Of a stretch of 64,000 nucleotides of DNA, positions 44,214-55,877 are shown one piece after another. The stretch is taken from positions 623,501 to 687,500 of the forward strand of contig NZ_CP030862.1 of NCBI RefSeq assembly GCF_003325375.1. Reading direction: 5' to 3'. The notes beneath the pieces are model-generated. The model saw only the letters and a list, made by a program, of their open reading frames with translations. It made no database searches and was not told where the DNA came from. The DNA comes from Streptomyces globosus (GTDB taxonomy: Bacteria; Actinomycetota; Actinomycetes; Streptomycetales; Streptomycetaceae). Position 1 is the stretch's first letter, and every line of letters begins with the position of its first letter. A program made the position numbers and the translations under genes.

Positions 44214-45920
44214 GTGAGGACAGCGACACTGGGGCCGGCGCAGCGCGCCGACGCCCTCGCCCGGATGGCCGAGCGGGAACTTGACGTGCTCGTGGTGGGC
44301 GCCGGCGTGGTCGGCGCGGGCACCGTGCTGGACGCCGCGACCAGGGGCCTGCGGACCGGGATCGTCGAGGCGCGGGACTGGGCGTCCGGGACGTCCAGCC
44401 GGTCCAGCAAGCTGATCCACGGCGGCCTGCGCTACCTGGAGATGCTCGACTTCGCCCTCGTGCGCGAGGCGCTGAAGGAGCGCGGCCTGCTGCTGGAGCG
44501 GCTCGCCCCGCACCTCGTCCGGCCCGTGCCCTTCCTCTACCCGCTCCGGCACAAGGGCTGGGAGCGCCTCTACGCCGGCTCCGGCGTCGCCCTGTACGAC
44601 GCGATGTCCGTCTCCAGCGGGCACGGCCGCGGCCTGCCCGTGCACCGGCACCTCTCCCGCCGGCGCGCCCTGCGGGTGGCCCCGGCCCTGCGCAAGGACG
44701 CCCTCGTGGGCGCCCTGCAGTACTACGACGCCCAGATGGACGACGCCCGGTACGTCACCAACCTGGTGCGGACGGCCGCGGTGTACGGGGCGCACTGCGC
44801 CAACCGGGCGAGGGTCGTCGGCTTCCTGCGCGAGGGCGAGCGGGTCGTCGGCGCGCGCGTGCAGGACGTGGAGGGCGGGCGGGAGTACGAGGTCCGCGCC
44901 CGCCAGGTGGTCAACGCGACGGGGGTGTGGACGGACGACACGCAGGTGCTGATCGCGGAGCGCGGCCAGTTCCACGTCCGGGCGTCGAAGGGCGTCCACC
45001 TCGTCGTGCCGAAGGACCGGATCAACTCGACCACCGGGCTGATCCTGCGGACGGAGAAGTCGGTCCTGTTCGTCATCCCGTGGGGCCGGCACTGGATCGT
45101 GGGCACCACCGACACCGACTGGGACCTGGACAAGGCGCACCCTGCGGCGTCCAGCGCGGACATCGACTACCTGCTGGAGCGTGTCAACTCGGTCCTGGCC
45201 GTCCCCCTCACGAGGGATGACGTGGAAGGCGTGTACGCGGGCCTGCGGCCCCTGCTGGCGGGCGAGTCGGACGCGACGAGCAAGCTGTCCCGCGAGCACA
45301 CCGTGGCGCACCCGGTGCCGGGGCTGGTCGTCGTGGCGGGCGGCAAGTACACGACGTACCGGGTGATGGCGAAGGACGCGGTGGACGAGGCGGTGCACGG
45401 CCTCGACCAGCGGGTCGCCGACTGCGTCACCGAGGACGTGCCGCTGGTGGGCGCGGAGGGGTACAGGGCCCTGTGGAACGGCCGGGCCGCCATCGCCGCC
45501 CGGTCCGGGCTCCATGTGGTGCGGGTGGAGCACCTGTTGAACCGGTACGGGTCGATGGTGGACGAGCTGCTGGACCTGATCGCGGCCGACCCCTCGCTCG
45601 GCGAGCCGCTCGGCGGGGCGGAGGACTACCTGCGGGCGGAGGTGGTCTACGCGGCCTCGCACGAAGGGGCCCGCCACCTCGACGACGTGATGACCCGCCG
45701 GACGCGGATCTCGATCGAGACGTTCGACCGGGGGACCCGCTCGGCGCGGGAGTGCGCCGAGCTGATGGCCCCGGTGCTGGGGTGGGACGAGCAGCAGATC
45801 GAGAAGGAAGTGGAGCACTACGAGAAGAGGGTGCAGGCGGAGCGCGAATCGCAGCGCCAGCCGGACGACCAGACGGCGGATGCCGCCAGGCTGGGCGCGC
45901 CCGACATCGTTCCGTTGTAA
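44214..45920 (+). CDS. glpD: aerobic glycerol-3-phosphate dehydrogenase
   Basis: A 568-residue FAD enzyme oxidising glycerol-3-phosphate to dihydroxyacetone phosphate at the membrane. FAD-binding DVLVVGAGVVGAGTVLDAA, the SSRSSKLIHGGLRYLE signature and the late VAGGKYTTYRVMAKDA motif are present, followed by the C-terminal GlpD cap domain. GTG start behind GGGAGG. No glpF or glpK adjoins it. The 262-base gap upstream holds a TATATA-containing region (44051-44057) that could serve this gene or the divergent dehydrogenase-like gene. Confidence 0.96.
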   Translation: MRTATLGPAQRADALARMAERELDVLVVGAGVVGAGTVLDAATRGLRTGIVEARDWASGTSSRSSKLIHGGLRYLEMLDFALVREALKERGLLLERLAPHLVRPVPFLYPLRHKGWERLYAGSGVALYDAMSVSSGHGRGLPVHRHLSRRRALRVAPALRKDALVGALQYYDAQMDDARYVTNLVRTAAVYGAHCANRARVVGFLREGERVVGARVQDVEGGREYEVRARQVVNATGVWTDDTQVLIAERGQFHVRASKGVHLVVPKDRINSTTGLILRTEKSVLFVIPWGRHWIVGTTDTDWDLDKAHPAASSADIDYLLERVNSVLAVPLTRDDVEGVYAGLRPLLAGESDATSKLSREHTVAHPVPGLVVVAGGKYTTYRVMAKDAVDEAVHGLDQRVADCVTEDVPLVGAEGYRALWNGRAAIAARSGLHVVRVEHLLNRYGSMVDELLDLIAADPSLGEPLGGAEDYLRAEVVYAASHEGARHLDDVMTRRTRISIETFDRGTRSARECAELMAPVLGWDEQQIEKEVEHYEKRVQAERESQRQPDDQTADAARLGAPDIVPL

Positions 45921-46096: not shown

Positions 46097-49069
46097 ATGT
46101 CGAAGCCGGAGCACACCGATTCGCCTGCGGCGGAGCAGGGCCGGGCGAAGCCCGTGTCGGGCGAGCCGAAGCCGTCTGTGAAGGCCGTCCCGCCTGCGCG
46201 GACGCCGGCGGCTGAGGCCGGGCCGGGCGCTGCGGAGCCGAAGGCCGCCGGTGCGGCCGCCGCCGGGCCCCAGGACACCGGGCAGTCCGGATCCGCCTCC
46301 CCGAAGCCCGACCTCGGGAAGCCGAAGGCCGCCCCTGCGGCTGCCCCCGCGCCGGAGGACGGCGGGGCGGCCGGATCCGCCTCCCCGAACCCGAAGGCCG
46401 CCGGTGCGGCTGCCGCCCGTGCCGCGGCGAATCCGCCCGGGGGCACGCCGGCTGACGCCGCGTCCGCTGCCGCCGGCCGTCCGGAGCCCGCCACCCGCAA
46501 GCCCTCCCTCGCGAAGCCCCGCCCCGCCACCGCAACCGGTTCCGCTTCCGCGCACCCGAAGACCGCGAAGCCCGCCAACCCGAAGGCCGGCGCCGCCCCG
46601 GCCGCATCCGCTTCCGCCGCACCGCAGAACCCGCAGCCGCGCCCGGTGCAGAGCAGCGCTGCCGCGTCTGATTCCGCTTCGGCTGACCTCAAGGATGCGA
46701 AGCCGGCTGCGCCCCTGGCAGGCGCAGCCGCGAACAGTTCCGCTGCGGTCGCTTCGGAGGACGCGAAACCGAGCCTGGCGAAGGGCGCTGCTGCCGGCGG
46801 TGGTTCCGCTTCGGAGCGGTCCGAGGGTGCCAAGCCCGGCCCGTCCGAGGGTGCTGCTGCCGCGCCGGATTCCGCTTCGGCCGGTGCGGCCAGTGCGAAG
46901 CCGGACCTCGCCAAGGGCGGCGCGGCGGCGACCGCATCCGGTTCGACGGAGCCGGAGGATGCGAAGCCGGGCCTTGCGAAGGACGCGGCTGCGGCGGCCG
47001 GTTCCGCTTCGGCCCGGGGCGAGGAGGCGAAGCCGAAGGCCGGGGCGCAGGCCGACGCCGTCCGCACGACGTCCGGGAACCCCATCATCGACAAGGCCGA
47101 CGCCGTCGCCGCCGCCGTGAAGGCCGCGGCCGTCAAGGCCGCCGACGACAGCGGCCGCGAGGGCCGGCTCCTCGCCGGCCGCTACCGGCTCGGCGAGGTG
47201 CTCGGCAAGGGCGGCATGGGCACCGTCTGGCGCGCCGAGGACGAGACCCTCGGCCGCACCGTCGCCGTCAAGGAGCTCCGCTTCGGCAACGGCGTCGACG
47301 AGGACGAGAAGCGCCGCCTCATCACCCGCACCCTCCGCGAGGCCAAGGCCATCGCCCGGATCCGCAGCGGCGGCGCCGTCACCGTCTTCGACGTCGTCGA
47401 CGAGGACGGCCGTCCGTGGATCGTCATGGAGCTCATCGAGGGCCCCTCCCTCGCCGAGTTCATACGGGAACAGGGCCCGCTGACGCCGCGCCGGGCCGCC
47501 GAGGTCGGCCTCGCGGTGCTCGAAGTGCTGCGTGCCGCCCACGGCCAGGGCATCCTGCACCGCGACGTGAAGCCGTCCAACGTGCTCATCGCCGCCAACG
47601 GCCGCGTCGTCCTCACCGACTTCGGCATCGCGCAGGTCGAGGGCGACCCGTCCATCACCTCCACCGGCATGCTCGTCGGCGCACCCTCGTACATCTCGCC
47701 CGAGCGCGCCCGCGGCCAGAAGCCGGGCCCGCCGGCCGACATGTGGTCGCTCGGCGGCCTGCTCTACGCCGCCGTCGAGGGGGTGCCCCCCTACGACAAG
47801 GGGTCCGCGCTCGCCACGCTCACCGCCGTCATGACCGAGCCGGTGGAGCCGCCGAAGAACGCCGGCCCGCTGACCGAGGTCATCTACGGCCTGCTGGTCA
47901 AGGACCCGGCCCGGCGCCTCGACGAGGAGCGCGCCCGGGTCATGCTGACCGCCGTGGTCAACATGCCGGAGCCGGAGGCCGTCGAGGTCCTGGCCCCGGC
48001 CGTGGAGGAGACCCGGCAGATCTCCCTGACCGCGGCGAAGGAGGCCGCGGCCAAGGCCGCCGCCGACAAGGCCGCCGAGAAGGCGGAGAAGAAGGAGCGC
48101 GAGCGCCGCGAGAAGGAGCAGCGCGAGCGCGCCCGCGCCGCGCTGAAGGCGGCCCGCAAGGCCGCCGCGGCCACCGCCGCCACGGCGGCGGCCGCGACCG
48201 CCGCCGAGCCGCCCGCCTCCGGCGGCGCGCGCACCGGCCCCGTCGCGGCGCCGCTGACGGACGTCATGTCGCGCCGCACCATCGGGCTGGCCATCGTCGG
48301 CGTGGTGGTCGCGCTGGCCGCGATCGGGTCGCTGATCGTGTACGCGTTCAGCGGCGGCGACTCCAAGGAGCAGGGCAAGGGCGCCCCGGGGCCGACGGCC
48401 TCCGGCAAGCCGAGCCCGGGCCCCTCCGGCAAGACCGGCGACGCCGGCTCCACCGGGGGTGGGGCGGGCGGCAGCAGCCCGTCGGCCCAGGGGCAGACGC
48501 CGAGCGGGCAGGAGAGCCCCGGCCAGGCGCAGGGGCAGGGGCAGGGGCAGGGCCAGGCGTCCGCGCAGGGCCAGGGCCAGGGCTCCGACCCGGGCGGTCC
48601 CGCGGCCGGGCTCCCCGCCGGCTTCGCCACGGTGACGGACCTCGGCTTCCGCTTCTCCATGGCGATGCCGCAGGACTTCCGCCACACGGACACCGCCGGT
48701 GACAACTCCGGCGCCATATACAGCCGCGACGGCGGCTTCCCGCGCATCCAGGTCGACTTCACCAGCCGCCCCGGCGAGGACGCGCGCGCCGCCTGGGCGG
48801 CGCTCGCCCCGGCCGTCGCCCGCAGCAGCAAGGGCTACCGGACGATCCGCATCGACGCGGTCGGCTACCGCGACTACCCCACCGTCGCCGACTGGGAGTT
48901 CGAGCGGGAGCAGCAGGGCATCAAGGTCCGCGTGCTCGACCGCGGCTTCAAGGTGGACGCCGCACGCGGCTACGCCATCATGATCAGCTGCGCGGCGGAC
49001 CAGTGGGACGGCCCGGAGTGCCGGCAGCTGCGCGACACGGCCTTCGCGACGTTCCAGCCCCTGGGCTGA
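46097..49069 (+). CDS. membrane Ser/Thr protein kinase with long Ala/Lys/Pro N-terminal region
   Basis: A 990-residue protein. Residues 1 to ~335 are low-complexity Ala/Pro/Lys/Ser with repeating units. The kinase domain (about 358-620) is intact: GKGGMGTV P-loop, AVKEL lysine, HRDVKPSNVL (His488), DFGIA (Asp508), YISPERARG and DMWSLGGLLY. A basic helical linker (about 655-700, KKERERREKEQRERARAALK) precedes one transmembrane helix (about 728-755), a Gly/Gln/Pro linker and an external domain of about 150 residues with cysteines near the end. ATG follows AGAGGGG. Ligand and substrates are unknown. Confidence 0.9.
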   Translation: MSKPEHTDSPAAEQGRAKPVSGEPKPSVKAVPPARTPAAEAGPGAAEPKAAGAAAAGPQDTGQSGSASPKPDLGKPKAAPAAAPAPEDGGAAGSASPNPKAAGAAAARAAANPPGGTPADAASAAAGRPEPATRKPSLAKPRPATATGSASAHPKTAKPANPKAGAAPAASASAAPQNPQPRPVQSSAAASDSASADLKDAKPAAPLAGAAANSSAAVASEDAKPSLAKGAAAGGGSASERSEGAKPGPSEGAAAAPDSASAGAASAKPDLAKGGAAATASGSTEPEDAKPGLAKDAAAAAGSASARGEEAKPKAGAQADAVRTTSGNPIIDKADAVAAAVKAAAVKAADDSGREGRLLAGRYRLGEVLGKGGMGTVWRAEDETLGRTVAVKELRFGNGVDEDEKRRLITRTLREAKAIARIRSGGAVTVFDVVDEDGRPWIVMELIEGPSLAEFIREQGPLTPRRAAEVGLAVLEVLRAAHGQGILHRDVKPSNVLIAANGRVVLTDFGIAQVEGDPSITSTGMLVGAPSYISPERARGQKPGPPADMWSLGGLLYAAVEGVPPYDKGSALATLTAVMTEPVEPPKNAGPLTEVIYGLLVKDPARRLDEERARVMLTAVVNMPEPEAVEVLAPAVEETRQISLTAAKEAAAKAAADKAAEKAEKKERERREKEQRERARAALKAARKAAAATAATAAAATAAEPPASGGARTGPVAAPLTDVMSRRTIGLAIVGVVVALAAIGSLIVYAFSGGDSKEQGKGAPGPTASGKPSPGPSGKTGDAGSTGGGAGGSSPSAQGQTPSGQESPGQAQGQGQGQGQASAQGQGQGSDPGGPAAGLPAGFATVTDLGFRFSMAMPQDFRHTDTAGDNSGAIYSRDGGFPRIQVDFTSRPGEDARAAWAALAPAVARSSKGYRTIRIDAVGYRDYPTVADWEFEREQQGIKVRVLDRGFKVDAARGYAIMISCAADQWDGPECRQLRDTAFATFQPLG
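46240..47045 (+). repeat. degenerate Ala/Ser/Lys-Pro repeat region within the first kinase gene
   Basis: The encoded segment repeats a loose unit of about 25-30 residues made of an SAS or SASA core, an acidic or basic spacer, AKP, then Lys/Gly and an alanine run. It occurs roughly eight times (units such as EDAKPSLAKGAAA and EDAKPGLAKDAAA). The DNA repeats are diverged but share GATTCCGCTTCGG-like blocks. Confidence 0.6.
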
Positions 49070-49162
49070 CAAGCCTTCCCGGGTCCGGGACGCGGGAGCC
49101 CCCGGCGACGTATCGTGTCAGCGGGGGCCGCAGGGAGACGGCCCCGGCTCGGGGGAGGCGCA

Positions 49163-52100
49163 GTGGAGGACTACGCGGGGCGGATCCTGGTCGGCCGCTA
49201 CCGTCTGCCGCTGCCGCCGTCGGACGAGTACGAGCCGGCCGAGACCCGTGCCTTCGACACCCGGAGCGGGCAGGAAGTCCTGGTCCGGCAGGTGCCGTTA
49301 CCCGAGATCGTGGACGCCGAGCTGGTCGACGGCGAGGCCGCCGGGTACGCCGCGGAGGCGCCCCGGCCCCCGTACCCCTCCGGCCCCGGGCGGCGCCCGG
49401 CGGGCGAACTCCCCGCCGTGCGGCGGGCGATCGCGGCGGCGCAGGCGGCGGCGTCCGTACCCGACCATCCGCGGCTGGACCAGGTCTTCGACGTGTTCGC
49501 CGAAGGCGGCTCACTGTGGATAGTGAGCGAGCTGGTGCCCGCCCGGCCGCTGGCCGCGCTCCTCGCGGAGGAGCCGCTGACGCCGTACCGGGCCGCCGAG
49601 GTGGCCTCCGACGTGCTGACGGCCCTGCGTGTGCTGCACGCGCACGGCTGGACGCACCGCAACATCACGGTGCGGACCGTGCTGATATGCGACGACGGGC
49701 GCGTCGTGCTGACCGGCCTCGCGGCCGGCGCCGCGGAGGACGCGCTGTGCGGGTACGACCCGGTCCCGCCCGAGGACGACGACCCGCCCGCGGAGGACGC
49801 CTGGGGCGCCCCGCCCGCCCCCGCTGCGCCCCCGTACGCCCCCCTGATCGCCCCCGGCTACGAAACGGCCCCCCGCCCCGCGGACCCCACGTCCCCGAAC
49901 CCCCAGCTCCCGCCCGGCTACGCCCCGTCGGCCGGGCCCGCCCCGGGACACACCGGCCGCGCCGTCCCCGAGCGGCCGCTGCCGCCCGGCATCGACCCGC
50001 CGGCCGACCCCGGTCCCGCGGCGGGACCCCGGTACGCGGACCACGTCGCCCCGGGGCCGCCGCTGCCGTCCGGCGGCGGCCCGTCGGCCCCGCCCGGTCC
50101 GGGGACCACCGGCCGCGCCGTCCCGGAGCCGCCGGGGCTGTCCGGCCGGGACGCGCAGGGCCTGCCCGGGGCCGTGGTGGGGCCGCGGTACGCGGACCAC
50201 ATCGTGCCCGGGCGGGACGCGCACGGCGCCGGCCTGCTGGGCGGCGGTGCGGCGGGGGAGGGCGGCCTGCTGCCCGGCGGCGCCGCGGACCGTGCGCCGC
50301 TCGTAGCCCCCGGATACGAGACCGGGCCGCGTGGCGGAGCCGCGGAGGCCGGTGCGTCCCGAGCCGTTGCCGCCCACGGGCCGGGGCCGGAGTCCGCGAC
50401 CGCGCGGGTCCCCGCGGAGGCGGCGCCCGGCTCCGCCCCGGAGCGGCGGCCGATCGGGTCGAAGCTGCCGCAGGGGTACGCGTACCCGTACGGCGGCCCC
50501 AAGGCCCCGGAGACCCCGGAGGCGGCGGAGGCGGCGGAGGCCGGAGAGGCCGGGGACGCCGCGCCGCCCTCGGAGGCGCCCTCCGCCCCGCCCGCACCCC
50601 CGGCCCCCGCCCCGGCCCCGGCGCCGCCCGGCCGGTCCGGCGGTGGTCCCGCGGATGACGGCCCGCATGCCGGAGCGGATGTGCCCTGGCACGGCGCGAC
50701 CCCGCGCCGGCAGGCCGCCCTGCCGCCCGGCCTGCCCCAGGGCTACCGGCACGCCGACGACGACACCGCCCCCCTCCACGCCCCCGGCCTTCCCGCGCCC
50801 GCCGGCGGCCCGGCCGGACCGGCCCCGGCCCGCCGGCCCGACGCCCCCGGCGGGGACTCCCGCCCCCTGGCCGCGCCCGCCGGCGGTCCCGCCGGGCCGA
50901 TCCCGGCGCGCCTCCCCCACGCCCCCGCCGGCCCGGCCGGGCCGGTCCCGGCGGGCCTGCACAACGCCCCCGTCCGCCCGGGCGGCACCGCCGCCCCCGC
51001 CACGGCGGGAGCCCCCCGCGGGGAGCGCCCCGGCCCCCGGGCCGCGTATGGCGGCGGTCCGGTCGGGGCCGTCCCGGCGCGGCTGCCCGGCGCCCGCGCC
51101 GGAGCCCCCGCCGCCCCCGGCGGCCGCCCCGGGGGAGGCGACCCTGCCGCGGCCGAAGGCGCCGGCGGAGGCCGGCCCGCGCCGGGGGCCGCCGCGCGCG
51201 GGCCGCGGACCGGGCTCGACGCCGAGCGGGCGCGGCAGACGCGGATGGCCGTCGTCGGGGCCGTCACCGAGCGGTGGGCCCCGGAACAGGCCCGTACCGT
51301 CGCCGGACCCTGGCAGATCGCGGCGCCCGTCGGCCCGGCCACCGACCTGTGGGCGCTCGGCGCGCTGCTCTACCGGGCCGTCCAGGGGCACCCCCCGTAC
51401 CCGGAGGACAGCGCCGCCGAGCTCGTCGAGATGGTCTGCTCCGAACCGCCCGCCTTCGCGGAGGAGTGCGGCCCGCTGCGGCCGGTCGTGGAGTCCCTGC
51501 TGCGCCAGGACCCCACCGAGCGCCCCGACTTCGAGGAGCTGCGCGGCTGGCTGCGCTCCCTCGTGCGGTCGGCGCCCGAGCCCGACGCGGCGCCCGGCGC
51601 GCTCCCGCCCGCCGAGCCGGACCCGGCCCGCCTGCCCGCCGTGCGCCGGCGCGGCGACCTGCACGGCCGGCACCGCAACCCGGCGCCCCGGCGCGGCCCC
51701 CGCCGCCTCGGGCGGGTCCTGCTGGCCGGGGTCCTCGCCCTCACCGCCGGGGCCGTGGCGTACGCGGTGCTGTTCCTGCCGCGGGCAGGCGAGGGGCAGG
51801 ACCGGGACGCCGCCTCGCAGACGCCGGTGGCGAAAACGGAGACGCCGTCCCCGCAGGCCCCGCGCTCCCCGGCGCCCTCCGCCACGCCCGGGCCCTCGCA
51901 GCCCGCGCCGCAGGCCCCGGCGTCCGCGCCGCCCGGCTACACCGTCCAACAGGACCCGGAGCACTTCGAGATCGCCGTCCCGCAGGGCTGGGAGCGCCGC
52001 GGCATGAACGAGGCGGGCCAGGTCCGCTACACCGACGGCCAGTACGTCCTGATCGTCGTCCCGGGCCGGGACAAGGTCGAGGGCAGCCCCGACCCGGCCA

Positions 52101-52378
52101 CCTACCAGAAGGACAAGGAGCCGGAGCTCGCCCCGTACCGGTCCTCGACGTGGGCCAGCGGCGGCGACGTGAAGACCACCAAGGTGGGTCAGCAGCTGCG
52201 GGCGACCGGCCGGTACACGTGGATCGACGGCACCGGCCGCAGCGTCGTCGCGCGCAACTTCGTCGTCGCGCTCGGCGGCAGCTACCACGTCGTCATGGTG
52301 ATGGGCCCGCAGGACGGCGAAGGCAAGGTGACCGAGGTCTTCGAGAAGGCGACCGGAAGTTACAAATCGGGCGGATGA
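49163..52378 (+). CDS. membrane pseudokinase with a ~490-residue proline-rich insertion
   Basis: A 1071-residue protein starting at GTG behind GGGGGAGG. Residues ~1-190 read like a kinase N-lobe and start of C-lobe, but the glycine loop is absent, the VAIK lysine region reads VLVRQV, HRD is HRN (HGWTHRNITVRTVL) and DFG is TGL. Residues ~196-687 are Pro/Ala/Gly-rich. The kinase C-lobe then resumes (RWAPEQA, DLWALGALLYRAVQG, LLRQDPTERPDFEEL). One transmembrane helix (about 848-873) and an external domain (about 910-1071) follow. Catalysis is very unlikely; a scaffold or signal-binding role is inferred. Confidence 0.85.
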   Translation: MEDYAGRILVGRYRLPLPPSDEYEPAETRAFDTRSGQEVLVRQVPLPEIVDAELVDGEAAGYAAEAPRPPYPSGPGRRPAGELPAVRRAIAAAQAAASVPDHPRLDQVFDVFAEGGSLWIVSELVPARPLAALLAEEPLTPYRAAEVASDVLTALRVLHAHGWTHRNITVRTVLICDDGRVVLTGLAAGAAEDALCGYDPVPPEDDDPPAEDAWGAPPAPAAPPYAPLIAPGYETAPRPADPTSPNPQLPPGYAPSAGPAPGHTGRAVPERPLPPGIDPPADPGPAAGPRYADHVAPGPPLPSGGGPSAPPGPGTTGRAVPEPPGLSGRDAQGLPGAVVGPRYADHIVPGRDAHGAGLLGGGAAGEGGLLPGGAADRAPLVAPGYETGPRGGAAEAGASRAVAAHGPGPESATARVPAEAAPGSAPERRPIGSKLPQGYAYPYGGPKAPETPEAAEAAEAGEAGDAAPPSEAPSAPPAPPAPAPAPAPPGRSGGGPADDGPHAGADVPWHGATPRRQAALPPGLPQGYRHADDDTAPLHAPGLPAPAGGPAGPAPARRPDAPGGDSRPLAAPAGGPAGPIPARLPHAPAGPAGPVPAGLHNAPVRPGGTAAPATAGAPRGERPGPRAAYGGGPVGAVPARLPGARAGAPAAPGGRPGGGDPAAAEGAGGGRPAPGAAARGPRTGLDAERARQTRMAVVGAVTERWAPEQARTVAGPWQIAAPVGPATDLWALGALLYRAVQGHPPYPEDSAAELVEMVCSEPPAFAEECGPLRPVVESLLRQDPTERPDFEELRGWLRSLVRSAPEPDAAPGALPPAEPDPARLPAVRRRGDLHGRHRNPAPRRGPRRLGRVLLAGVLALTAGAVAYAVLFLPRAGEGQDRDAASQTPVAKTETPSPQAPRSPAPSATPGPSQPAPQAPASAPPGYTVQQDPEHFEIAVPQGWERRGMNEAGQVRYTDGQYVLIVVPGRDKVEGSPDPATYQKDKEPELAPYRSSTWASGGDVKTTKVGQQLRATGRYTWIDGTGRSVVARNFVVALGGSYHVVMVMGPQDGEGKVTEVFEKATGSYKSGG
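49755..51225 (+). repeat. proline-rich low-complexity insertion within the pseudokinase gene
   Basis: This encodes about 490 residues of Pro/Ala/Gly with recurring short phrases such as APGYET, LPPGY, RYADHV, PQGYAYPYGGP, PAGGPAG and PARLP. It sits exactly where the kinase activation segment should be. Confidence 0.7.
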
Positions 52379-52502
52379 GAGGCTTCTGACGGCAAATCAG
52401 TACGGCAATTGCGTCACAGTGCTGCCGGAACCGCGCCCTCCGTGTACCGGCGGCCCCGTGCGCTTCGTAATCTGGCCCGAAGTGCACAGAGTGGCGGGGA
52501 TC

Positions 52503-54128
52503 GTGGAACAGCAGACAGGTGCGGGCGCAGTGCTCGCCGGCCGGTACCGGCTCGTGGAGCCCATCGGCAGCGGCGGCATGGGCAAGGTGTGGCGCGCCCA
52601 CGACGACCTCCTGAGCAGGACCGTCGCCGTCAAGGAGCTGACGGCCGGGCTGTACGTCGCCCAGGCGGACCGGGACGTCCTGCACGCCCGGACGCAGAAG
52701 GAGGCCCGCGCGGCCGCCCGCATCCAGCACCCGGCCGTCGTCACCGTCCACGACGTCTTCGAGCACGACGACCGGCCGTGGATCGTCATGGAGTACGTCG
52801 ACGGCCCGTCCCTCGCCGAGGCGGCCAAGGCGGCCGGCCGGATCGAGCCCCGCGAGGCCGCCCGGATCGGGCTGCACGTCCTCGGCGCGCTGCGCGCCGC
52901 GCACGCGGTCGGCGTGCTGCACCGGGACGTCAAGCCCGGCAACGTGCTGCTCGCCAGGGACGGGCGGGTGCTGCTCACGGACTTCGGGATCGCCGCGATC
53001 GAGGGCGACTCCTCCATCACCCGCACGGGCGAGATCGTCGGCTCCATCGACTACCTGGCCCCGGAGCGCGTCACGGGCGGCACCCCGGACCCGGCGTCCG
53101 ACCTGTGGTCGCTCGGGGCGACCCTCTACACGGCGGTCGAGGCCCGCTCGCCGTTCCGCCGCACCTCGCCGATCTCCAGCCTGCAGGCCGTCGTCAACGA
53201 CGAGCCGCCCGCGCTGCGCCAGTCCGGTCCGCTGGGGCCCGTCATCACCGCGCTGCTGCGCAAGGACCCCGAGGAGCGGCCCTCCGCGCAGGAGACGGAG
53301 CGGATGCTGCTGGAGGTGATGGAGGGCCGCGAGCCGAGGGCGGCGCAGGCGTACGTGCCGACGCGCGCGGTGAGCCCGCAGGAGCTGTCCGGGGCGCGGG
53401 AGGCCGAACCGGAGGCCCCCGCGGCGAGCGGCGCGGGAGGGACGGCCGCCCTGCCGGCCGGTCCGGCGGAGCCGGCCGAGAGGCCCCGCTCCAGCGCCGG
53501 CCGGGTCAGGCGGGCCGCGGCGGTGGCGCTGGTGGCGGCGCTGGTCGGCGGCGGCGCGGTCTTCGGGCTGCTGAAGTACACCGGCGACGGGGTCGGCGGC
53601 GACGGCGCCGACCGCAACGCGAGTGCCCCCGACCGGCAGGGCGGCGCCGGGGACAAGGACGCCAAGGACGCCTCCCCGCCCGCGGGCTGGAAGGAGGTCA
53701 CCGACCCGGAGGGCTTCACCCTGTGGGTGCCGGACGGCTGGAAGCGGCAGATGGACGGCAACCAGATCGACTACACACCGGACAACGGCAGGCACTTCAT
53801 CCGCATCGCCGTCGACCCCACGCCCGACTACGACACCGCGTACGCGCACGTGCTCGACCTGGAGAAGCAGGTCAGCCGGCGCACCGACTACAAGCGGCAG
53901 CGGCTGAACCAGAACACCTTCCGCGACACCACCCGCGCGGCGCTGTGGGAGTTCACCTGGACCGAGAAGGGCGTCCACGCCGGACCGCGCCGCGCCATCG
54001 AGCAGATGTACATCGCCCCGGACGGCACCGAGTACGCGGTGTACATGTCGGGCCCGACGTCCACCTGGGAGACGACCCGGGCGCAGTTCGACACCGTGCT
54101 CAAGGGCTGGGCGCCGCCCGCCGGCTGA
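52503..54128 (+). CDS. membrane Ser/Thr protein kinase, third gene of the cluster
   Basis: A 541-residue kinase. The kinase domain (about 14-275) is complete: GSGGMGKV, AVKEL, HRDVKPGNVLL (His ~140), TDFGIA, SIDYLAPERVTGG and DLWSLGATLY. One transmembrane helix follows (about 336-357), then a Asp/Gly/Lys-rich linker and a ~145-residue external domain beginning PAGWKEVTDPEGFTLWVP that resembles the ends of the two preceding proteins. GTG 52503 is chosen where kinase homology begins; GTG 52491 is possible. TAATCT (52468-52473) could be its -10. Confidence 0.9.
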   Translation: MEQQTGAGAVLAGRYRLVEPIGSGGMGKVWRAHDDLLSRTVAVKELTAGLYVAQADRDVLHARTQKEARAAARIQHPAVVTVHDVFEHDDRPWIVMEYVDGPSLAEAAKAAGRIEPREAARIGLHVLGALRAAHAVGVLHRDVKPGNVLLARDGRVLLTDFGIAAIEGDSSITRTGEIVGSIDYLAPERVTGGTPDPASDLWSLGATLYTAVEARSPFRRTSPISSLQAVVNDEPPALRQSGPLGPVITALLRKDPEERPSAQETERMLLEVMEGREPRAAQAYVPTRAVSPQELSGAREAEPEAPAASGAGGTAALPAGPAEPAERPRSSAGRVRRAAAVALVAALVGGGAVFGLLKYTGDGVGGDGADRNASAPDRQGGAGDKDAKDASPPAGWKEVTDPEGFTLWVPDGWKRQMDGNQIDYTPDNGRHFIRIAVDPTPDYDTAYAHVLDLEKQVSRRTDYKRQRLNQNTFRDTTRAALWEFTWTEKGVHAGPRRAIEQMYIAPDGTEYAVYMSGPTSTWETTRAQFDTVLKGWAPPAG

Positions 54129-54248: not shown

Positions 54249-55877
54249 ATGACGGACTCGCCGGCCACCGCCCTCCTCCGCCCTGCCCCGCAGCCCACCA
54301 ACCCGGTCGCCCCGGCCCCCGCCGGCGCGCGCACCGCCGCGGACGTGGTGACCCCCGACCTGGTCGCCCGCCTCACCCGCGGCGTCATCGGGTCCGGGCG
54401 GACCGCGAACCACACGCCGTTCACCGGGGCCAAGCTCGCCGACCTCCCCGAGGCCACCCCGGCCGAGGTCGCCGAGGCGTTCGCGCGGGCCCGTACCGCC
54501 CAGGCCGCCTGGGCCGCCGTGCCCGTACGCCGCCGCGCCGCCGTCCTGCTCCGCTTCCACGACCTGGTCCTCGCCCGCCAGGCCGAGGTCCTCGACCTGA
54601 TCCAGCTGGAGACCGGCAAGGCCCGGCTGCACGCCCACGAGGAGGTCCAGGCCGTCGCCGTCGCCGCCCGCCACTACGGCCGCAAGGCGCCCGCCTACCT
54701 GCGGCCGCGCAGCCACACCGGCGCGATGCCGACCCTCACCAAGGTCACCGAGCTGCGCCAGCCGCGCGGCGTGGTCGGCCAGATCGCCCCCTGGAACTAC
54801 CCCCTCGAACTCTCCGTCGGCGACGCCCTGCCCGCCTTCGCCTCCGGCAACGCCGTCGTCATGAAGCCCGACACCGAGACCGCGCTGACCGCCCTGTGGG
54901 CACGCGACGTGCTCGTCGAGGCAGGGCTGCCCCCCGAGATCTTCCAGGTCGTCCTCGGCGAGGGCCCCGTCGTCGGCCCCGAGGTGGTCCGGCACGCCGA
55001 CTACGTCTCCTTCACCGGCTCCACCCGCACCGGCCGCGAGGTCGCGCAGGGCGCCGCCGCCCGCCTCGTCGGCGTCTCCCTCGAACTCGGCGGCAAGAAC
55101 GCCATGCTCGTCCTCCACGACGCCGACGTCGAGAAGGCCGCCGCCGGCGCCGTCCGCGCCTGCTTCTCCTCCGCCGGCCAGCTGTGCATCTCCATCGAGC
55201 GGCTCTACGTCCACGCCTCCATAGCCGACGAGTTCCTCGCCCGGTTCGCCGCCCGCACCAAGGCCATGCGCCTGGGCAGCTCCCTCGCCTACGGCGCGGA
55301 CATGGGCTCGCTGGTCGGCGAGCGCCAGCTGGAGACCGTCCGCCGGCACGTCGACGAGGCCGTCGCCAAGGGCGCCACCCTCGTCGCCGGCGGCACCGCC
55401 CGCCCCGACATCGGCCCGCTGTTCTACGAGCCGACCATCCTCGACGGCGTGGAGGCGCCGATGGCCGTCTGCGGCGAGGAGACCTTCGGCCCGGTCGTCT
55501 CCGTCTACCGCTTCACCGACGAGGACGAGGCCGTCGCCCAGGCCAACGCCACCCCCTACGGCCTCAACTCCAGCGTGTGGACGAAGGACGCCCGCCGCGG
55601 CCGCGCCGTCGCCGCCCGCCTGCGCACCGGCACCGTCAACATCAACGAGGGCTACGCCCCGGCCTACGGCAGCGTCCGGGCCCCCATGGGCGGCATGAAG
55701 GACTCCGGCCTCGGCCGCCGGCACGGCTCCGAGGGCATCCTCAAGTACACCGAGGCGCAGACGGTCGCCCACCAGCGGCTGCTGCCGATGGCGCCCTCGC
55801 TCGGCATGGACGACGAGGCGTACGCGGCGTTCATGACGCGCAGCCTCCGGCTGATGAAGGCCCTCCGCCTCCGCTAG
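54249..55877 (+). CDS. gabD: succinate-semialdehyde dehydrogenase-like (NAD(P)+) aldehyde dehydrogenase
   Basis: A 542-residue ALDH. The first ~35 residues are variable. GQIAPWNYPLELSVGDALPA, FTGSTRTGREVAQ, catalytic Glu in LELGGKNAM and catalytic Cys in SSAGQLCIS are intact, and EETFGPVVSVYRF is conserved. Overall pattern is that of the actinobacterial GabD2-type enzyme, converting succinate semialdehyde to succinate, but related aldehydes cannot be excluded. The GMC oxidoreductase gene follows 64 bases later. Confidence 0.85.
   Translation: MTDSPATALLRPAPQPTNPVAPAPAGARTAADVVTPDLVARLTRGVIGSGRTANHTPFTGAKLADLPEATPAEVAEAFARARTAQAAWAAVPVRRRAAVLLRFHDLVLARQAEVLDLIQLETGKARLHAHEEVQAVAVAARHYGRKAPAYLRPRSHTGAMPTLTKVTELRQPRGVVGQIAPWNYPLELSVGDALPAFASGNAVVMKPDTETALTALWARDVLVEAGLPPEIFQVVLGEGPVVGPEVVRHADYVSFTGSTRTGREVAQGAAARLVGVSLELGGKNAMLVLHDADVEKAAAGAVRACFSSAGQLCISIERLYVHASIADEFLARFAARTKAMRLGSSLAYGADMGSLVGERQLETVRRHVDEAVAKGATLVAGGTARPDIGPLFYEPTILDGVEAPMAVCGEETFGPVVSVYRFTDEDEAVAQANATPYGLNSSVWTKDARRGRAVAARLRTGTVNINEGYAPAYGSVRAPMGGMKDSGLGRRHGSEGILKYTEAQTVAHQRLLPMAPSLGMDDEAYAAFMTRSLRLMKALRLR

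Follow-up and report, generated by a model that had tools for sequence, protein, structure and literature searches.

The conserved core of a Streptomyces spore-wall kinase locus is a PkaH-type kinase and its adjacent pseudokinase

Does a pseudokinase encoded between two intact membrane kinases belong to a three-part receptor, or is it the partner of one of them? The question is raised by a 64,000-nucleotide stretch of the 7.5 Mb genome of Streptomyces globosus (contig NZ_CP030862.1, positions 623,501 to 687,500; this whole stretch is the window, and its own numbering is used below), in which three consecutive + strand genes at 46097-54128 encode a kinase, a pseudokinase and a kinase, flanked by glpD-type and aldehyde dehydrogenase genes. 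All window features described here lie on the same strand. A sequence-only reading of the window had placed two intact kinases around a pseudokinase, which Pfam and the translations confirmed, and had suggested that the three proteins could form a three-component receptor, with conservation of the trio order in related genomes as a check.

Our results show that, throughout the genus, the conserved core of the locus consists of PkaH and the pseudokinase, PkaD and the further kinases being additions. A first set consisted of 80 named loci picked by similarity to the window, whose close named relatives are all Streptomyces, one unclassified record excepted; pkaH lay upstream of the pseudokinase in all 71 loci that had an upstream gene. 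To lessen the similarity bias, a second set of 60 genomes, taken from those found in the genus-wide search described below, was composed of 20 among the most divergent and 40 from the remainder. Here a PkaH-type kinase was found directly upstream of the pseudokinase at 59 of the 59 loci in which the pseudokinase motif was found. Directly downstream, these 59 loci carried a PkaD-type kinase (38), an aldehyde dehydrogenase (8) or another kinase (3), and the remaining 10 showed no further cluster gene within the fetched stretch, so that PkaD does not directly follow the pseudokinase in 21. Moreover, from 0 to 3 extra kinases come after PkaD, and some loci reach four to six kinases. Thus, the trio order is not conserved (38/59), whereas the PkaH-pseudokinase pair is (59/59), and a three-component receptor is not supported as the unit. 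Of 104 genomes searched in the genus, 100 carry the pseudokinase gene in one copy, and the four without a match are assemblies of 580-910 contigs. Elsewhere in the order, 15 genomes from other genera gave no match.

The middle gene (49163..52378) has a GTG start and encodes 1071 residues; its motifs and orthologues identify it as an ActPs2-type pseudokinase (PMC12599244), by position the orthologue of S. coelicolor SCO4776. Its Pkinase match in Pfam is partial only (E=5.6e-13): VAVK has become VLVR, HRDxKxxN has become HRNITVRT, DFG has become GLA, and the glycine loop is lost. Residue counts in orthologues were made by motif pattern over 123 distinct sequences. The beta-3 ATP-binding lysine is replaced by R42 (49286..49288), and this residue is Arg in 121/123 orthologues (119 by pattern and 2 by eye), numbered 42 in 65 of the 69 counted. 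At the catalytic loop (49655..49678) the catalytic Asp is lost, with Asn in 123/123; the loop reads HRN in 122 and HGN in one, and Asp occurs in none. The 60th locus of the second set (L166) carries HGN and, because it reads HGN and not HRN, it also lacks the catalytic Asp. In this variant (L034 / L166) a kinase that was dead already has suffered one more loss. The Asn of DxKxxN is also replaced, and the Arg of HRNxTxR is conserved in 123/123, mostly at residues 158-178 and at 177 in several. At the DFG region (LTGLAAG, 49709..49729) the Asp is Gly in 123/123; in the alignment GLA is a substitution, and a deletion is not clear. The APE motif is kept (TERWAPEQ, 51266..51289) and is followed by a conserved C-lobe. 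The claim that all kinase motifs of this protein are lost was therefore too strong: the catalytic motifs are replaced, but the APE motif and the C-lobe are intact and highly conserved.

The domain contains two insertions. One, between beta 3 and alpha C, is visible in the window pseudokinase and in its orthologues, and shifts the number of the HRNxTxR Arg (158 to 178). The other, within the activation segment, is a Pro/Ala/Gly-rich low-complexity stretch of about 495 residues (49730..51214), recognised from the spacing between the catalytic loop and APE, which ranges from 81 to 643 in orthologues (median 336), compared with about 29-30 for the locus's active kinases. Imperfect repeats of 156, 72 and 45 bp lie in the insert DNA (49879-50212 and 50874-50985), and pieces of the insert peptide recur within the pseudokinase, for example APGYET and RYADH. 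The sequence suggests that this insert grew by internal duplication.

These features match the actinobacterial ActPs2 pseudokinase family (O'Boyle et al. 2025, PMC12599244). That family is described as having Arg in place of the beta-3 Lys, HRN, a deleted or degraded DFG and a C-terminal transmembrane region; one insert separates beta 3 from alpha C, and another, of about 250 aa in about 90% of members, lies in the activation loop. The window protein shows R42, HRN, an eroded DFG, both inserts and the C-terminal transmembrane region, and the match of its sequence to the described features indicates an ActPs2-type pseudokinase. The portions of that paper available to us do not describe the gene neighbourhood, any external domain or a phenotype, and Streptomyces is not mentioned in their text.

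Is a kinase domain that has lost its catalytic residues still under selection? As judged from 1711 genome pairs, it is as constrained as the active kinase domains: dN/dS (the ratio of nonsynonymous to synonymous substitution rates) was 0.11 for its C-lobe and 0.18 for its N-lobe, with 0.18 for the kinase domain of PkaH and 0.23 for that of PkaD, ratios that serve for comparison only because synonymous sites are strongly diverged in these GC-rich genes. The external domains of all three proteins are fast-evolving (0.53-0.69). Given this constraint, the consistency of the catalytic-site residues and the near-universal single copy, the pseudokinase gene is not in decay, nor is it an artefact of sequencing. 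The absence of the catalytic Asp from all 123 orthologues, together with strong purifying selection on the domain, bears out the earlier view of the middle protein as a non-catalytic member.

All three proteins end in an external domain of PsbP/Mog1/LpqN-like fold, as seen by profile for PkaD and by structural model for the other two. The sequence-only reading had noticed a similar pattern in these C-termini and had proposed profile comparison and structure prediction. In hhalign comparisons of orthologue profiles all three pairs aligned end to end over 134-143 columns: PkaH with PkaD at 98.0% (E 1.9e-13), the pseudokinase with PkaD at 96.0% (E 4.8e-9) and PkaH with the pseudokinase at 86.2% (E 4.9e-6). 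The controls, three unrelated neighbour regions and reversed profiles, reached at most 10%, and the likeness is thus beyond chance. AlphaFold2 models of the external domains of the pseudokinase (51938..52375) and PkaH (48617..49066) had a mean predicted local distance difference test score (pLDDT) of 95.4 and 96.7, respectively, and their strands and helices follow much the same order. With Foldseek the top fold for both was PsbP/Mog1, represented by CyanoP (2xb3, template modelling (TM) score 0.78 for the pseudokinase and 0.73 for PkaH). Plant PsbP and DcrB also match both modelled domains (DcrB as 6e8a for the pseudokinase), and the PkaH domain additionally matches Mog1p (1eq6) and LpqN (6e5d). 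Differing folds were not found: the two models share a fold and the same match in the PDB. For the PkaD domain (53682..54125), Pfam PsbP matches were obtained in 18 of the 33 orthologues scanned singly (best E 5.9e-6), and its profile found 2xb3 in the PDB at E 0.0029. The Pfam search of the full-length window proteins named no external domain, and against PDB sequences the profiles of PkaH and the pseudokinase gave only weak, scattered matches. The PkaD profile also matched CdtA in the PDB; at E about 0.8-1 we took this match as chance.

Compared with the solved PsbP-fold structures, the external domains show about 7-18% identity; PsbP, CyanoP, Mog1p, LpqN and DcrB have the same fold (TM 0.73-0.78 for 2xb3), but here it forms the external part of membrane kinases and not a photosystem subunit or lipoprotein. 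A search for PsbP/Mog1 domains of Streptomyces kinases in the open-access literature found no paper on the subject. Within this genome the domain has a narrow distribution. External profiles run against the open reading frames around 30 of its kinase loci, the trio included, gave convincing matches in the trio only, and the PkaD profile, searched against the whole genome, matched only the PkaD and pseudokinase domains. The duplication proposed in the sequence-only reading is supported on both counts, common descent by hhalign and a local origin since the domain is confined to the trio among the Ser/Thr protein kinases (STPKs) of the genome. In the kinase tree the cluster kinases fall in one group (support 100/99), which also holds two further kinases from the same genome. 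The two kinases elsewhere in the genome that are closest to those of the cluster, G000:C1:4957050-4958228 (L090) and C1:3104372 (L104), both lack a PsbP-type domain.

The external domain of the pseudokinase is retained in 60 of 60 loci. That of PkaH has been lost in three divergent genomes (L144, L146 and L148), where no remnant is seen in any frame and PkaH stops shortly past its membrane helix; the adjacent pseudokinase keeps its own external domain, and no PkaD was seen in these loci either. The three genomes therefore provide a natural experiment on which member of the pair senses.

Both flanking kinases appear active by their motifs. The PkaH-type membrane Ser/Thr kinase (46097..49069), identified by Pfam and by the gene order glpD-pkaH-pseudokinase, which holds at every locus with flanks, has a kinase domain at residues 363-609 (47183..47923; PF00069 Pkinase, E=9.9e-42) with complete motifs (VAVKE, HRDVKPSN, DFG) and a transmembrane segment at residues 729-747 (48281..48337, hydropathy 2.71). 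It has 990 residues as read, but its open frame varies between genomes from fewer than 500 to more than 1500 residues, and its start codon is therefore uncertain. Its N-terminus, about 350 aa, is Ala/Pro/Lys-rich. The PkaD-type membrane Ser/Thr kinase (52503..54128), identified by Pfam and orthologues, more likely starts at the GTG at 52503, 52419 also being possible; its kinase domain (52545..53297; PF00069, E=9.5e-47) has intact motifs, and hydropathy places its transmembrane segment at 53517..53573. A hydropathy scan found exactly one strongly hydrophobic 19-residue segment in each of the three proteins (the transmembrane segment of the pseudokinase is 51716..51778), in agreement with the one transmembrane helix per protein noted before. 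In their cytosolic Hanks kinase, single transmembrane helix, external sensor region and cell-wall role they resemble the PASTA kinases of PknB type, but here the external domain is PsbP-like, a partner pseudokinase gene is present, and Pfam found no PASTA domain in the three proteins; membership of the PASTA kinases was rejected on this last ground.

The trio is pkaH-SCO4776-pkaD, as indicated by gene order and near-universal conservation in the genus, not by direct alignment. In S. coelicolor these genes belong to a cluster of five consecutive genes for eukaryotic-type STPKs (eSTPKs): SCO4775 (pkaH), SCO4776, SCO4777 (pkaD), SCO4778 (pkaI) and SCO4779 (pkaJ) (Ladwig et al. 2015, PMC4416010). 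Both loci show the order kinase, unnamed gene, kinase, and their intergenic gaps are alike, 93-173 bp there (PMC4416010) and, with the chosen starts, 93 and 124 bp in the window, where a promoter scan of the locus region returned nothing usable. They differ in that genes like pkaI and pkaJ are absent from the window's clade, its succinate-semialdehyde dehydrogenase (SSADH)-like gene coming directly after pkaD. According to the parts of the 2015 paper available to us, PkaI phosphorylates MreC and PBP2, deletion of the cluster gives spores that are aberrant, dead and sensitive to vancomycin, and sporulation is upset when any member is present in an additional copy, the SCO4776 copy disturbing the spore envelope like the kinase copies; extra pkaI is the exception for the vancomycin effect and, in the paper's text, for aberrant spores (PMC4416010). 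MreC phosphorylation by PkaI and PkaH has also been reported (PMC9739823), and an MreC gene was found in the S. globosus genome. In those parts of the 2015 paper SCO4776 is treated as a kinase, with no mention of pseudokinase status or of a common external domain.

What, then, does the dead kinase do? In the reading that we favour, and to which we would give an even chance, PkaH and the pseudokinase work as a pair, with the dead kinase as an allosteric or scaffold co-receptor, and the trio is this species' version of the spore-wall eSTPK cluster. We favour it because the pairing is invariant, the dead kinase domain is constrained and the external domain is never lost. As a non-catalytic co-receptor of PkaH, the pseudokinase would bind a putative envelope-derived ligand or partner protein through its fast-evolving external domain, while its conserved dead domain would dock on the kinase domain of PkaH, and on that of PkaD where present. 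Once docked, it would switch or scaffold the kinase by means of its C-lobe and the long, flexible insert of its activation segment, and the outcome would be to set the phosphorylation of proteins that make the spore wall, MreC and PBP2 among them. The effect of extra SCO4776 would be one of stoichiometry, because the protein is expected not to phosphorylate anything.

Several points weigh against this co-receptor reading. It presumes a physical contact between PkaH and the pseudokinase; ligand sensing, the direction of regulation and the role in S. globosus are likewise steps that we infer. Gene order is the basis for equating the middle gene with SCO4776, and the five cluster genes of S. coelicolor are reported to be transcribed separately, with differing profiles (PMC4416010). 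In the kinase tree the stem of the pseudokinase is long (2.25), and its place is uncertain for this reason. Moreover, in distance-matrix (mirror-tree) comparisons the partial r for PkaH and the pseudokinase was 0.43-0.75, but unrelated neighbours reached 0.5-0.56, and the specificity of the signal for the pair was gone within subclades. Since the negative controls failed, co-evolution is not used as evidence.

A stronger form of the pairing, which we put forward tentatively, is a heteromeric PkaH-ActPs2 receptor that depends on the dead kinase as its obligate subunit for sensing and activation, with the further kinases as interchangeable outputs. The PsbP-fold domain would sense the envelope state, and the pseudokinase domain with its flexible insert would turn PkaH on; if so, the 'overbalanced phosphorylation' phenotype of extra SCO4776 would be stoichiometric, not catalytic.

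It is also possible, though we doubt it, that the three are independent receptors: tandem duplicates that have stayed together by chance, each with its own signal, the pseudokinase scaffolding for example Mre/PBP2 and not regulating PkaH. That the S. coelicolor genes are transcribed separately and differ in their expression profiles (PMC4416010) fits such an arrangement, as do the fast divergence of the external domains, the variable size of the cluster and the overlap of the pair's mirror-tree r with that of unrelated neighbours. However, the adjacency of PkaH and the pseudokinase is invariant where the rest of the cluster varies, and the pseudokinase stays beside PkaH even without the third kinase. 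We regard as unlikely a negative regulator or decoy that competes for ligand or substrate and so dampens phosphorylation. A common external fold would permit competition, and a second SCO4776 copy causes an envelope defect as when the kinases are upset (PMC4416010), but the direction of this phenotype is uninformative because adding copies of active kinases produces it too; for a decoy, moreover, the external domain alone would suffice, yet the dead kinase domain is conserved like the live ones. Quite improbable, in our view, is a protein that still binds ATP through R42 and the HRNxTxR Arg and whose function is nucleotide-gated or catalytic in an unusual way. In a reported AlphaFold3 model, an ActPs2 protein holds ATP by R42 and R177 (PMC12599244), and the beta-3 Arg and HRNxTxR Arg have the conservation and, in many or some orthologues, the numbering given above, but none of the catalytic Asp, the DFG Asp, the DxKxxN Asn and the glycine loop has been kept. 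An obligate trimeric receptor of two kinases and a pseudokinase, to which the homologous external domains and the trio order of the window and of 38 sampled loci would point, is the least probable of all, given the 21 loci in which PkaD does not directly follow and the others with four to six kinases.

Both the spore-wall kinase locus (PMC4416010) and the ActPs2 family (PMC12599244) are already published. In the available portions of those papers we did not find it stated that the unnamed gene in the middle of the spore-wall kinase cluster encodes an ActPs2 protein, nor that the locus has a common PsbP-fold external domain or a conserved PkaH-pseudokinase core. Bacterial pseudokinases have been little explored by experiment (PMC12599244), and the present assignment places ActPs2 in a defined, genetically tractable setting: a near-universal single-copy Streptomyces gene beside PkaH, with a published spore-wall phenotype. 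If the co-receptor reading is true, the 2015 overexpression result for SCO4776 needs re-reading, the cluster kinases gain a named sensor fold, and a testable model becomes available in which a co-receptor without catalytic activity takes part in controlling the bacterial cell wall.

Finally, some observations concern the surroundings of the trio. The conserved left neighbour is a glpD-type glycerol-3-phosphate dehydrogenase gene (44214..45920; Pfam DAO and DAO_C, synteny), and the conserved right neighbour is the SSADH-like aldehyde dehydrogenase gene (54249..55877; Pfam Aldedh, synteny). The DNA that encodes the PkaH N-terminus (46236-47144) contains imperfect repeats, about 84 and 66 bp long. 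Among the 25 STPKs of the S. globosus genome in the tree, none fell within the clades of the extra cluster kinases. In other genomes these extra kinases lie between pkaD and ssadh (L041-L086, L158-L197) and carry several further external-domain types, several having no external domain. By hhalign the type X1 is clearly related to the PkaD domain, and X2 and X3 are not detectably so; the external sensors of the extra kinases seem to be swapped or fast-diverging.

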